A model generated the notes under the pieces. The model did not search any database, had not been told where the DNA came from, and worked only from the letters and a program-made list of their open reading frames with translations. 37,015 bases of DNA, from positions 1-37,015 of IMG/VR virus record IMGVR_UViG_3300042465_002081; one strand, written 5' to 3'. The position numbers were made by a program, and so were the translations under genes. Positions 21,968-30,195 of the stretch are shown here, piece after piece. This stretch comes from a virus. Each line of letters opens with the position of its first letter. Positions within the stretch are counted from its first letter, which is position 1.

Positions 21968-22083
21968 AAGCCATAATTTATAAGGCTTTTTATGTTAGTC
22001 ATTCGCGCACAATTACATACCCACGAAATAACCCACATGACCGACAAAATTGTGAGCATTTGTGAGCTTTTTGCTATAAATAA

Positions 22084-22112
22084 TTGTACACTGCTATAAA
22101 ATCATGTACAAT
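22084..22112 (+). promoter_or_regulatory. Early promoter with overlapping palindrome
   Basis: TTGTAC (22084-22089) and TACAAT (22107-22112) are 17 bases apart, a good sigma70-type promoter for the plus-strand early genes, with a start near 22119. TTGTACA (22084-22090) and TGTACAA (22105-22111) are also perfect inverted repeats, so a dimeric repressor or activator could occupy both hexamers. A second TATAAA at 22075-22080 lies just upstream. Confidence 0.6.
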
Positions 22113-22377: not shown

Positions 22378-22695
22378 ATGAATAAAGTTACTCGCGACAT
22401 AAACAAGTGGTTCCCTGAACTAAGCGCCGAGCAAGCGCTAGACGTTCACTTGACTTTAATGGCTACAGATATTGATTTCTCAAGCGCGACGAATTACGAG
22501 TTAAAACAGGCCGCGCTTGAGGTTATCCGCTCGACTGCGCCGGACGTCTACCGCGCTTACTTCACCAAAGCAAAAGAAAAAGAAAAGGGTTACTTACACG
22601 GCGCCGAGGGTTTGCCCGCGACGTCCGTGCATCCCTTGTACGTCAAAATGTACGCAATGGGCCAACGTCACGTTAAGGACTCAAAAAATGTCTAA
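22378..22695 (+). CDS. Hypothetical early protein
   Basis: The product has 105 residues. I chose the ATG at 22378 (MNKVTRDINKWFPELSAEQA) because TAAGGTG precedes it at the usual distance. The longer frame from 22327 adds unconserved-looking residues and overlaps the previous gene. The protein is mixed helical with FSSATNYELKQAALEVIRS and KAKEKEKGYLHGAEGL. The function is unknown. The motif CTCTAAGGT before the start recurs ahead of 23613, with a shorter version ahead of 22976, so these genes share a ribosome-binding leader. Confidence 0.6.
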   Translation: MNKVTRDINKWFPELSAEQALDVHLTLMATDIDFSSATNYELKQAALEVIRSTAPDVYRAYFTKAKEKEKGYLHGAEGLPATSVHPLYVKMYAMGQRHVKDSKNV

Positions 22696-22888
22696 AGAAA
22701 CTCTAATTTATGCGTTACCGAAAGGCGAAACGCGCCGCTATTGCGAAGAGTTAATTTCGGTTAAGTGCCAAGACGATGATGATATTGCCCGCGTTAAAGC
22801 GGCCGCAAGCGCGGCCGGTTACCACTCATTCCGCGTTGCGTACTACAACGGTGAAAAGCCCAACTTTTTAGGTGCCCTCAATGTCTGA
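22688..22888 (+). CDS. Small hypothetical early protein
   Basis: The product has 66 residues. The ATG at 22688 overlaps the previous gene's end by eight bases. The sequence MSKETLIYALPKGETRRYCE, then CQDDDDIARVKAAASAAGYH and SFRVAYYNGEKPNFLGAL, looks like a compact alpha/beta fold. The much longer frame from 22517 lies inside the upstream gene and is not used. I cannot assign a function. It overlaps the next, very small gene by eight bases. Confidence 0.6.
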   Translation: MSKETLIYALPKGETRRYCEELISVKCQDDDDIARVKAAASAAGYHSFRVAYYNGEKPNFLGALNV

Positions 22889-22955: not shown

Positions 22956-22975
22956 ACTTCACTCAAGGTTAAACC

Positions 22976-23557
22976 ATGAAACTTATATTTAAAACTTCCT
23001 CGTTATTCGCCGCGCTTGAATGCTCGGCCAAAAAAGATTTACGCTATTACTTGCAAGGTATCAATATTCAAATCACCAAGCCGTTTACCGGTATGGTGTA
23101 CGGCACCGACGGCCACATACTATTTGCCGGTCAATTGCCGTATGAGGGCGCGTGCGACGTGCCGTTAAACCTCATTATCCCGACCGACGCGGTCAAACGC
23201 TTAGACAAAAAAGCCGAGTTCACCGAGTTAGAATTTGACGGCCAAAACTATTTACTTGGCGGCGCGCGCTTTGTGCCCGTCGATGGCCGTTATCCTGACA
23301 TTGGCCGCAATATTCCGTCGATCGACTCGAGCACCGAACAAACGCCAAGCACCTATAACCCTGATTTATTGGTGCGCGGTCGCGCGGCTCTGTCGCTCTA
23401 TCTCGGCGTTAAGCCAAAAGATACATTTAACTTTATTCAGCGCGGTTCTGATAGCGCGGTAATGCACGCGGGCACCAATGAGTGCCTAGTCGTCGTTATG
23501 CCTATGCGCGCCACGCCCGACGCGCCGTATGCCGGTTTTAACCGCAATTTCATGTAG
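22976..23557 (+). CDS. DnaN-like sliding clamp protein, shortened
   Basis: The product has 193 residues. KKDLRYYLQGINIQI (19-33), VYGTDGHILFAGQLP (41-55), LIIPTDAVKRL (66-76) and ARFVPVDGRYPDI (97-109) match domain II of the bacterial beta clamp (DVRYYLNG, ATDGHRL, IVP, VDGRFPDYR). CLVVVMPMRA (170-179) matches the DnaN C-terminus (YVVMPMRL). Domain I and about half of domain III are absent; normal DnaN has about 366 residues. It may be a processivity factor for the phage polymerase or a decoy of the host clamp. It lies in the early unit, not with the polymerase. Confidence 0.7.
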   Translation: MKLIFKTSSLFAALECSAKKDLRYYLQGINIQITKPFTGMVYGTDGHILFAGQLPYEGACDVPLNLIIPTDAVKRLDKKAEFTELEFDGQNYLLGGARFVPVDGRYPDIGRNIPSIDSSTEQTPSTYNPDLLVRGRAALSLYLGVKPKDTFNFIQRGSDSAVMHAGTNECLVVVMPMRATPDAPYAGFNRNFM

Positions 23558-27115: not shown

Positions 27116-27143
27116 AAGCCACCCTAGCCGGTGGCTTTTTTTT
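27116..27143 (+). terminator. Plus-strand intrinsic terminator between HNH and primase genes
   Basis: AAGCCACC-CTAGCC-GGTGGCTT is a perfect 8-bp stem followed by T residues to 27143. It has the full form of a terminator for plus-strand RNA although genes on both sides are on the minus strand. In minus-strand RNA the stem is preceded by A residues and lacks a U-run, so it should not block primase expression. It may stop antisense read-through. Confidence 0.75.
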
Positions 27144-27525
27144 ATTTAACAGCGGCTAAACCGACTGCGTGCAATTTTCGGTCGTCATAGTTTTCTTTGA
27201 CTGTGCCGTACTTTAAATTACTAAGCACGTTATTAGTTTTGACGCCGTCTAAATGTCTGATCTCGCATCGGCCATTTAAATCAGGCCTTTGACCCTCAAA
27301 AGCAAGCAAAACTAACTCATGAATATAAGCGGTTTTTAAAACCCCCGCACGGGCTAGTTTTACACTCAAATAACTATTTGATATAAATTGTTTCAAATCT
27401 TTACCTGTGTAAGTCATACCTTTATGGCGGCCATAAGGTACAAATCGCGTTAACGATCGTACATTGCCATAATTGCTTACTTCGTAAAATCCGTCATAAC
27501 CTGGTATTGCAGTCCATAATTCCAT
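27142..27525 (-). CDS. HNH homing endonuclease with NUMOD4 domain
   Basis: The product has 127 residues. LWTAIPGYDGFYEVSNYGNV at the N-terminus is the NUMOD4 DNA-binding motif. The HNH part has HELVLLAF (H69), CEIRHLDGVKTNN (H91, N98/N99) and LSNLKYGTVKEN. It is a free-standing nicking or cutting endonuclease of the homing type. It lies between polymerase and primase-helicase with an AAGGA Shine-Dalgarno that spans the polymerase stop. The gene is visibly richer in A and T than its neighbours, consistent with recent acquisition as a mobile gene. No intron boundary is needed to keep the flanking genes open. Confidence 0.85.
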   Translation of the reverse strand: MELWTAIPGYDGFYEVSNYGNVRSLTRFVPYGRHKGMTYTGKDLKQFISNSYLSVKLARAGVLKTAYIHELVLLAFEGQRPDLNGRCEIRHLDGVKTNNVLSNLKYGTVKENYDDRKLHAVGLAAVK

Positions 27526-27527
27526 TT

Positions 27528-29450
27528 TTATCCTTTACCATACCGAGCCATTGTTTGAATCTCGGCGTCTAGTGGCAGACCTTGCGCCCACGGGGGCGGC
27601 GTACACATTACTTGCCTTAACCGCTCGGTGACGGTTTCGGGCTGATCGGTTTCAATAACAATTTCGTCGTGAACGTGGAGTACAACGTCGTCAAGGGCTC
27701 GGAGAGCGTAACGTAGTACGTCGTTCGCACAGGCTTGAGTGATGTTCTCGCAAGCAAGCCCACGCCATAGTCGGGCGCGTGGCCATTCATGGGCGTCGGC
27801 GGCGGGCTTCCATGCTGCTTTGGCGTATGAAATTCCATCTTCTTCAAGTTTGGCGTAAGGGTAGCAGAGGATGCGACCCGAGGGTAAAGCGTACCATAGA
27901 TGCTGCCCGTCATACAGGTAGGTTACCCTACCCGCCACGATTTCTTTACCCTTATTACGCATGGCGATCATGTAGCCAGTTTCCAACTCTTGCCAGTAGC
28001 GCACCGCCCATTGGTTTGCGCGGCGCCAGGCGTCCACGGTGCGCTGCGCATCCGACTCGGTCATGGTTAACCCGTACGCTCGACCCATTGCAGAAAACGC
28101 ACCTAAACCCCCGCCGAAACCACAGGCAAGGATTGCGACCTTACCGATCTGTCTTTGGTCGGGCGTGACTTGGTCTTCAGGTATCTTGTACATGGCGGCA
28201 GCTTCCCGTATGTAAATGTCGCGGCCTGACCTGAACACGTCTAGCACGTCATCGCCTCGACCCGACAACCACGGCGTCATCCTAGCTTCGATCTGCGCCC
28301 AATCGGCTACCACCAAGGACTTACCCTTAGCCGGTATGATCGCGGGTCTGAGCATCCCTTTTAGAACGTCTGTGACCCTCTTACCAAACTGGGGAACGAT
28401 GGGGTGTCCTTGAACCATGCTTGCTCTAACAGATTCAGGGTCGCGGGCACACTTTCTTGTGAAATTATGGACTTGAGCGCCGTAGCTAGACGCTCTACCC
28501 GTTGCGGATCCACCGGCGAACACGAACGCTCCACGAACGCGGCTATCTCCCACATCAGCCAACTCTTGTAAGCGTGAGAACTTCGCAACCGACGACGCCC
28601 AGAGATCATCGGCACATTGGATAACCTCGGCAACGTCGGGCGGTAGGTCTTCCACGGCCAAGAGGTTTGCGCGTACGCGCTTGTCAATCGAATACTTTCC
28701 ATCTTCCACTTCCATGAGTTTTAACTGCTCGGGGCTTAGTCTTTCTTGAACCCAAGCGCGCATCTTCGGCGAGCGGACTGACGTGATTTGGCCATTGGTG
28801 ACACTTCTGACAATGGACTGAATATCCTCGAGTTCCGTGGCCGCGTAAGAGATGGCTGCGCTGGCAAGAGGCACGTCCACCAAAACACCTCTGTCGTTAA
28901 TTTTTTCGTTGACATGGTAATCCTCCAACTCTTCATCTGATAGGGGGCGTAGGCTTTGACTGACGGCGCGCATGGCGCGCACGTCTTGCTCACAGTATTG
29001 CACCATTTCAAGCATTAGCGCAGGGTCGTCTTTAAACGGCGGTACGCACAACGCCCTAATCAACTGCGCGCCACGGTAATCTTTCTTCATGCTCGCACCG
29101 GCAAACCGGCCCACGTCTTCAAGGCTACCAGGCGCGCAATTGGCGCGCGCTTGAGTGGCTGTGCAATAGAACTGCTCTAGCTTGAAGTTGATCTGTAAGA
29201 CGTACCAAAAAATCAAGCGCTCAAAGGCTGCGTTGTGGGCGTAGATCAAGCCCTTGTGATCGCGTACACGCTTAGGAAACGGCTGCGTGGGTAACCACGT
29301 CACAACGTCTTCATCGTCAAAGGCGTAGGACATACACAACACATCGGTCGTTGCGTCTTGCGCGTAGTTGTAGACGCCATGCTTCTTTAGGTCGCAATGA
29401 CTACGCGTTTCAAAGTCAACCCATAGCATATTGCTTACGGATTTTGCCAC
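27528..29450 (-). CDS. DNA polymerase, family A, with 3'-5' exonuclease
   Basis: The product has 640 residues. Exonuclease motifs are VDFETRS (11-17), AHNAAFE (71-77) and YCEQD (152-156). Polymerase motif A is VADWAQIEARM (381-391), motif B is RQIGKVAILACGFGG (433-447) and motif C is LHVHDEIVIE (591-600), which together supply the catalytic aspartates. It is the phage replicative polymerase. The GTG at 29450 follows GGAG at a short distance; an ATG at 29429 would remove seven residues and still keep exonuclease motif I. It overlaps the upstream gene by 35 bases. Confidence 0.92.
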   Translation of the reverse strand: MAKSVSNMLWVDFETRSHCDLKKHGVYNYAQDATTDVLCMSYAFDDEDVVTWLPTQPFPKRVRDHKGLIYAHNAAFERLIFWYVLQINFKLEQFYCTATQARANCAPGSLEDVGRFAGASMKKDYRGAQLIRALCVPPFKDDPALMLEMVQYCEQDVRAMRAVSQSLRPLSDEELEDYHVNEKINDRGVLVDVPLASAAISYAATELEDIQSIVRSVTNGQITSVRSPKMRAWVQERLSPEQLKLMEVEDGKYSIDKRVRANLLAVEDLPPDVAEVIQCADDLWASSVAKFSRLQELADVGDSRVRGAFVFAGGSATGRASSYGAQVHNFTRKCARDPESVRASMVQGHPIVPQFGKRVTDVLKGMLRPAIIPAKGKSLVVADWAQIEARMTPWLSGRGDDVLDVFRSGRDIYIREAAAMYKIPEDQVTPDQRQIGKVAILACGFGGGLGAFSAMGRAYGLTMTESDAQRTVDAWRRANQWAVRYWQELETGYMIAMRNKGKEIVAGRVTYLYDGQHLWYALPSGRILCYPYAKLEEDGISYAKAAWKPAADAHEWPRARLWRGLACENITQACANDVLRYALRALDDVVLHVHDEIVIETDQPETVTERLRQVMCTPPPWAQGLPLDAEIQTMARYGKG

Positions 29451-30195
29451 CCGCTCCTGCGTTGATGACCGCTGCGTTAACCCATATTTTGCTGCCAGTT
29501 GGCAGACGTCTTATGTGACCCCGACGCAAGTGTTCGCGGGGGCTGCGGTGACTACCTCCCGCGTGGCCGTGGCCGGTGCCCGCTGGGCGATCTATCGTCA
29601 GCACATGGTATTCATCAAAGGGCAACGCACCAAGCGTTTTGCTAGGTTTGCGGGTAGGTAATTTTTCAGCTTTAACATTACTGCACGCCAAAGCGTTAAG
29701 AAAACCAAGCAAAGTATCAACGCCCAAATTTGTAAATAACTTCATGTCTTCTTTATATTTTTCTTCTACCAAACGCCTTTTAATAGCAAACTGTACATTA
29801 CCGTCTATGTCCTGCCGCATAAATTCTGTTTTAGGTGTGCTAGCAAATCCGAGTGGAAGCCACGCTTCCTCTGACCCAGCCCAAACGCACATCAATATTT
29901 GCGCTTCGTCTTCTATTGCATAAATAACTATTTTTCTTGAGTTTTTGCCAAGGATAGCAAATTCCAAAACAATAGACGCATAAGGTAAATGTAATTCGGT
30001 AATATCACTAAGACCTTTTAATTTTGGGTCTTCTATAATTTTACCGTCGCCAGGCAAAGTAAATTTAACCGCAAAATCTAACCCATCTAATAGCACATCT
30101 ACCGGCATTTTAGGTAGCTCTTTTTTAACATGATCGCGCAACGACGATTTAGCATATAGTTTTTTAATTTGACGACAAAAATTTAATGGTTCCAT
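29416..30195 (-). CDS. Conserved phage protein of unknown function
   Basis: The product has 259 residues. The N-terminal two thirds are a mixed fold with hydrophobic strands (ASIVLEFAILGKNSRKIVIY). The C-terminal part is distinctive: ALPFDEYHVLTIDRP, GGSHRSPREHLRRGHIRRL and GSKIWVNAAVINAGAGG. The SPREHxRRGHxRRL motif is familiar from many phage and prophage proteins of unknown role and could bind metal or nucleic acid. The first two thirds of the gene are richer in A and T than the end. Its stop lies within the polymerase start region, implying coupling. It could be a modular fusion. Confidence 0.6.
   Translation of the reverse strand: MEPLNFCRQIKKLYAKSSLRDHVKKELPKMPVDVLLDGLDFAVKFTLPGDGKIIEDPKLKGLSDITELHLPYASIVLEFAILGKNSRKIVIYAIEDEAQILMCVWAGSEEAWLPLGFASTPKTEFMRQDIDGNVQFAIKRRLVEEKYKEDMKLFTNLGVDTLLGFLNALACSNVKAEKLPTRKPSKTLGALPFDEYHVLTIDRPAGTGHGHAGGSHRSPREHLRRGHIRRLPTGSKIWVNAAVINAGAGGKIRKQYAMG

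Follow-up and report, generated by a model that had tools for sequence, protein, structure and literature searches.

The window analyzed here, a 37,015-nucleotide stretch of viral DNA (IMG/VR record IMGVR_UViG_3300042465_002081), carries a gene for a cut-down derivative of the sliding clamp DnaN that comprises domain II and the latter half of domain III, here called the half-clamp. Sliding clamps are taught as rings, and DnaN has three clamp domains in about 366 residues. The half-clamp has lost the surfaces that close the DnaN ring and keeps the pocket that docks partner proteins. The reading that we favor, with confidence a little short of even, is that it is a phage-adapted, non-ring docking module for proteins carrying a clamp-binding motif (CBM), mostly those of the host, and we infer that it probably acts while on DNA.

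The original prediction proposed a DnaN-type clamp of about one and a half domains from the motifs DLRYYLQG, GTDGHILF, VDGRYPDI and VVMPMR. All four are present in the 193-residue product, and the clamp signatures lie well beyond chance. The protein is a full-length member of the PHROGs family phrog_3007 (E=1.6e-25; residues 2-182 of 193, profile positions 2-189 of 190), with a weak second match to a DNA polymerase processivity factor family. Its scores are below the cut-offs of PF02767, the Pfam model of the DnaN central domain (17.4 bits versus 27), and of TIGR00663 (19.4 bits versus a curated 137.65); the relative in phage Bcep781 lies just above the PF02767 cut-off, at 28 bits. Sequence-only alignment to PDB DnaN chains covers domain II and, as a separate piece, the C-terminal half of domain III through VVMPMR. 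A family profile built from 51 representatives (<75% identity) aligns by hhalign with residues 127-366 of E. coli DnaN (probability 99.6, E=1.2e-24), leaving a large gap at about 250-311. The protein thus has half-units IIa, IIb and IIIb but neither domain I (about 1-126) nor IIIa, the first half of domain III (about 250-311), which bears out the earlier count of three remaining half-units. The gene and its parts are as follows.

22976..23557, + strand: half-clamp gene, 193 aa, ATG start, DnaN domain II plus second half of domain III (sequence, profile map, AlphaFold2, Foldseek, dN/dS)
22965..22968, + strand: AAGG, likely ribosome-binding site, 7 nt before the ATG (sequence)
22976..23152, + strand: half-unit IIa, residues 1-59 (E. 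coli DnaN about 127-190), DNA-facing helix and first part of the pocket, boundary approximate (hhalign map, predicted secondary structure)
23042..23053, + strand: RYYL, residues 23-26, pocket R152 and L155, 100% in the 51 family representatives (conservation)
23102..23122, + strand: GTDGHIL, residues 43-49, pocket T172, G174, H175, R176 (I here) and L177 (conservation)
23153..23320, + strand: half-unit IIb, residues 60-115 (DnaN about 191-250) (profile map, model)
23282..23311, + strand: DGRYPDIGRN, residues 103-112, pocket P242, R246 and V247 (N here) (conservation)
23321..23350, + strand: linker, residues 116-125, where DnaN IIIa (about 250-311, including I272, L273 and E298-E304) is missing (profile map; interface residues from PMC11139829)
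23351..23512, + strand: half-unit IIIb, residues 126-179 (DnaN about 317-366), helix and strands ending in VVVMPMR (profile map, model)
23357..23368, + strand: NPDL, residues 128-131, pocket positions N320 and Y323 (L here) (conservation)
23492..23509, + strand: VVMPMR, residues 173-178, pocket V360, M362, P363, M364 and R365 (conservation)

The predicted fold agrees with this map. The AlphaFold2 model of the window protein (mean pLDDT 89.9, pTM 0.85) finds only beta clamps among its top PDB matches in Foldseek (E from 7e-9), and a relative from the Dhillonvirus SO-1 clade (172 aa, ~28% identical; pLDDT 94.0, pTM 0.89) returns the same matches. Neither of the outcomes named as refuting the original prediction, an unrelated fold or homologues of normal length within the family, was encountered. 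In the window model, half-unit IIa is predicted to have strands at residues 2-6, 28-35, 38-44 and 48-59 and a helix at 7-14, and the IIb helix is only 5 residues long; the latter is absent from the SO-1 clade model. We regard the anatomy as solid: the half-clamp derives from DnaN and is built from its domain II and half-unit IIIb. Since the published pocket residues lie in IIa and IIIb and the dimer-interface residues in domain I and IIIa, the remaining piece should form a single continuous arc of ring, IIb-IIa-IIIb, around the II/III boundary.

One side of the DnaN dimer interface is made of K74, I78, R96, R103, R105 and F106, and the other of I272, L273, E298, E300, E301, E303 and E304 (PMC11139829). 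Every one of these residues maps to the deleted parts, so that both the contact between I78/F106 and I272/L273 and the ion pairs are gone. With both halves of the usual interface deleted, a ring of half-clamps could be built only with a new stoichiometry, as had been argued at the outset.

The CBM pocket of DnaN comprises R152, L155, T172, G174, H175, R176, L177, P242, R246 and V247, together with N320, Y323, V344, V360, M362, P363, M364 and R365 (PMC11139829). All of these positions are present in the half-clamp family, and they form its most conserved part (3.24 bits in pocket columns versus 1.53 elsewhere, p=3e-8, 51 representatives). In the same set, R152, L155 and P242 are conserved at 100%, followed by G174 (98%), T172 (96%), H175 and M362 (92% each), R365 (88%) and P363 (86%). 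Because pocket residues are also conserved in DnaN itself, a sharper control was restricted to positions at least 85% conserved in 76 DnaN proteins: the half-clamps retain 0.74 of those in the pocket versus 0.44 of those outside it (p=0.002), and the non-pocket positions that are retained lie mostly in the pocket loops (A147, D150, Y153, Y154, G157, D238, G239 and D243). The window protein differs at four pocket positions (R176I, V247N, Y323L and V344D). The suggestion that the protein poisons or borrows the host clamp itself finds no backing here, since what is conserved is the partner-binding pocket and not the clamp-clamp interface. In a separate observation, gp31 of phage BcepC6B (L016 4073-4588), whose N-terminus is annotated too short, has lost the MPM of the pocket motif (VIAGCRL), though its gene directly follows that of the polymerase.

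The side of the protein that would face DNA has also changed. Over three inner-wall segments (DnaN 133-152, 196-212 and 319-336), the mean net charge is +4.8 in the half-clamps versus -1.7 in 76 DnaN proteins (p=1.5e-21, for related and hence not independent sequences), and the charge of the remaining protein is nearly equal in the two groups (about -3.6 and -3.8, respectively). The gain is a redistribution, because the conserved basic DnaN residues R197, K198 and K235 are mostly gone from the half-clamps, the alignment near 196-200 being uncertain. Basic DNA-facing segments would fit direct binding to DNA without a loader, by analogy with UL42 and UL44, viral clamps that are loader-free, basic and not rings (PMC9690074).

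Relatives of the half-clamp occur in 230 phage records in GenBank (tblastn), and scans of viral contigs confirm at least 475 (IMG/VR) and 319 stretches holding one. The 135 distinct viral proteins read from 158 fetched loci all measure 167-213 aa; none comes near 366, and the family holds no homologue of normal length. Comparison of the window gene with six close relatives gives a dN/dS of 0.08-0.12. Because the same cut-down form recurs in hundreds of phages, the half-clamp is a working protein. The window protein belongs to a branch of phrog_3007 from freshwater phages, in which a short tail follows MPMR at the C-terminus. In a tree of 51 half-clamps and 23 DnaN proteins, computed from the domain II plus IIIb columns with full-length phage clamps left out, the two groups lie on opposite sides of one branch (SH-aLRT 99), which is consistent with a single origin. 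A bacterial origin of the short form was rejected: the best 80 bacterial loci are nearly all full-length chromosomal DnaN (76 complete at ≥355 aa). The only complete short copy among them, at about 4548-5105 of L216, lies on a contig binned to a Nitrosomonadales MAG and is likely phage DNA in the bin. A split clamp with its missing domain encoded elsewhere was likewise discarded, as profile searches found DnaN domain I (PF00712) in none of 39 related records and PF02768 nowhere else in the window record.

In the window, the half-clamp gene is one of a series of small + strand ORFs flanked by the terminase on one side and primase/polymerase on the other, all of these on the - strand; this placement is shared by close relatives and by ones only ~30% identical (L165, L167, L168, L169, L172 and L174). 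The earlier statement that the gene is expressed with early genes and not with the polymerase may hold as far as this conserved placement goes, but it fails as a general argument. The half-clamp belongs to a replication operon in BcepC6B, Acinetobacter phage 4316 and L113/L114, directly beside the polymerase gene in the first two and upstream of exonuclease, polymerase and helicase genes in L113/L114. In Bcep781, SO-1, SE1 and Shewanella 1/41 it stands alone and is oriented against the head genes, and in the Skatevirus group it lies near a ParB-like gene.

Several other features of this region were recorded. Upstream of the run of small ORFs, the intergenic region holds an inverted repeat at 22083-22112 (ATTGTACA / TGTACAAT); its arms are separated by 14 nt, TATAAA occurs in this spacer, and the element resembles an operator or a bidirectional promoter. 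The 66-aa protein encoded at 22688-22888 has no family matches, and its relatives lie just upstream of the half-clamp in distant phages (L065, L082, L091, L095, L165 and L174). A 259-aa ORF at 29416-30195, without a Pfam or PHROG match, overlaps the start of the polymerase gene and is kept beside it in close relatives. An HNH endonuclease ORF at 27142-27525 lies between primase and polymerase; in L031/L032 a relative of it is found near the terminase instead, and the L033 locus showed none, which suggests a mobile insertion. Membership of the half-clamp in a defence or counter-defence family was dismissed, as PADLOC gave no match.

Profile searches of the 39 related records bear on which partners the pocket may serve. 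PolA is encoded in 16 of them, including that of the window phage (17 with phrog_17, one marginal), Pol III alpha and PolB in none of the 39, and 22 have none of the three, although some records are fragments and a very divergent polymerase could escape a profile. A clamp loader of the gamma/delta' type (PF13177) was found in none of the 39. Across 17 phage PolA sequences, no canonical CBM was detected, where 2.6 would be expected. Among the window phage's own proteins there is one CBM, QLTLDL in a structural-region protein, which is below chance; matches in the ORFs of relatives are scattered and too poorly conserved for a claim. Two small hypothetical proteins encoded upstream of polymerase genes carry motifs resembling the CBM, both possibly by chance: BcepC6B gp34 (L016 360-719; QMELL at the extreme C-terminus) and one in Acinetobacter phage 4316 (L020 1607-1933; QLGLF).

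Because 22 of the 39 records show no polymerase by profile and the phage PolA proteins lack a canonical CBM, host partners are favored, in keeping with the host-directed role that had been suggested. The docking module would form no DnaN-type ring and would need no clamp loader. As a monomer or in a small oligomer, it would be kept on DNA by the basic face of its helices, and CBM-carrying proteins would dock in its pocket. In most phages these may be the host's Pol III, ligase, Hda or repair polymerases, which would be brought to phage DNA or redirected during infection. Monomeric beta, which still binds DNA, provides a precedent for a non-ring form (PMC11139829). Against this reading, a beta mutant that is monomeric fails to confer processivity on Pol III (PMC11139829), so that a non-ring form would need another way to stay on DNA. 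The frequent loss of R197, K198 and K235 and the BcepC6B pocket without MPM weigh on the same side. A bolder formulation, which we consider possible but less likely than not, is that of a working clamp outside the two known ring plans. It would be either a bacterial-type clamp that needs neither ring nor loader and keeps host replication proteins on phage DNA, or a closed tetramer whose subunits have three half-units each. To our knowledge, the stoichiometry of such a tetramer has not been seen in DnaN, PCNA or gp45.

The main rival reading sees the half-clamp as a decoy: in solution, its pocket would compete with the DnaN of the host for CBM proteins and thereby weaken or redirect host replication. 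We consider it unlikely, though worth serious attention, and would say the same of its proposed targets, namely the clamp-loader delta subunit, Pol III alpha, Hda, and defence or mobile-element proteins. A lost ring with an intact pocket is what a decoy would look like. Since delta binds monomeric beta ~50 times more tightly than dimeric beta (PMC11139829), the half-clamp is a plausible loader competitor. The gene is often solitary and away from replication genes (a "possible moron" in phage SO-1), and a host shut-off would spare the window phage's own polymerase, as its PolA lacks a canonical CBM. However, no polymerase was detected in the majority of the related phages searched. Such phages should depend on host Pol III, and since a broad decoy would put that enzyme out of action, only a selective one fits; nor would a decoy need a basic DNA-facing side.

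A role as processivity factor dedicated to the phage's own family A DNA polymerase appears improbable as an account of the family. The gene's neighborhood in BcepC6B, Acinetobacter phage 4316 and L113/L114 would suit that role, as would the presence of PolA in the window phage and 15 other records. This is outweighed by the 22 records in which no polymerase was found, by the lack of a canonical CBM in the 17 PolA sequences, by the placement of the gene on the strand opposite the polymerase in the window clade, and by the degraded pocket in BcepC6B, where the gene follows that of the polymerase. Some phages may use the half-clamp with their PolA, but that leaves the family as a whole unexplained.

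Within a clamp domain, pseudo-twofold symmetry relates the two half-units, which makes it conceivable that like half-units pair. A ring of new stoichiometry could then contain four subunits of three half-units each, twelve in all, for example as a D2 tetramer in which IIIb pairs with IIIb and IIb with IIb, and could be loaded by the host loader or self-assemble. All family members keep the same three half-units, and four such subunits give the twelve of a usual clamp ring. We nevertheless give both the ring and this example geometry a low probability: both known ring-closing surfaces are gone, and the IIb helix, short in the window protein and missing from the SO-1 clade model, spoils the canonical twelve-helix inner wall.

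A truncated pseudogene of a normal clamp, as the short length and an old note on Bcep781 might suggest, is refuted by the uniform length of the 135 relatives, purifying selection (dN/dS ~0.1) and a confident, complete predicted fold, and we give it practically no chance. The same near-zero standing applies to a RusA-like Holliday junction resolvase, as the family is named by PHROGs and RefSeq: the name alone speaks for it, and it is refuted by the predicted beta-clamp fold, the lack of a Pfam RusA match and the comparison of the family profile with Bcep781 RusA (probability 0.1). Bcep781 carries both genes, its real RusA being the separate gp22. RefSeq records such as NC_004333.2 and NC_054644.1 carry the name "RusA-like Holliday junction resolvase" for the half-clamp, and phrog_3007 is often annotated as DNA polymerase III beta subunit. 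The resolvase name is wrong, an annotation error that has spread.

Databases already contain the family, and its Bcep781 member carries the old note "DNA Pol III b subunit fragment". The literature searched contained annotations only; no paper in it was found to describe how the half-clamp is built or works, that the interface is lost on both sides or that the pocket is retained. In the half-clamp family, the docking of partners is separated from the encircling of DNA, two clamp functions that are inseparable in DnaN without mutations. The family offers a small natural tool to test which host functions depend on docking alone, and it possibly represents a natural competitor for the pocket at which clamp-directed antibiotics are aimed. 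It also corrects the misleading resolvase name in databases.

Among known systems, DnaN (TIGR00663; PF00712/PF02767/PF02768) shares with the half-clamp the fold of domain II and IIIb and all the main parts of the CBM pocket, whereas the half-clamp, at 167-213 aa, is without domain I, IIIa and both interface sides and has more basic DNA-facing segments. Full-length phage DnaN clamps, such as the 386-aa gp28 of Burkholderia phage KL1, encoded beside the polymerase (PMC3483164), are likewise phage-borne but differ in their three-domain length and their place beside the polymerase. Twort Gp168, which binds in the DNA channel of DnaN (PMC11139829), may overlap in function as a case of phage interference with the clamp, but the half-clamp is itself a clamp derivative. 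The herpesvirus proteins UL42 and UL44 offer an analogy only, with no sequence relation claimed: they are basic, loader-free processivity factors of clamp fold that form no closed ring (PMC9690074), but, unlike the half-clamp, they have two complete PCNA-type domains and a dedicated polymerase partner.
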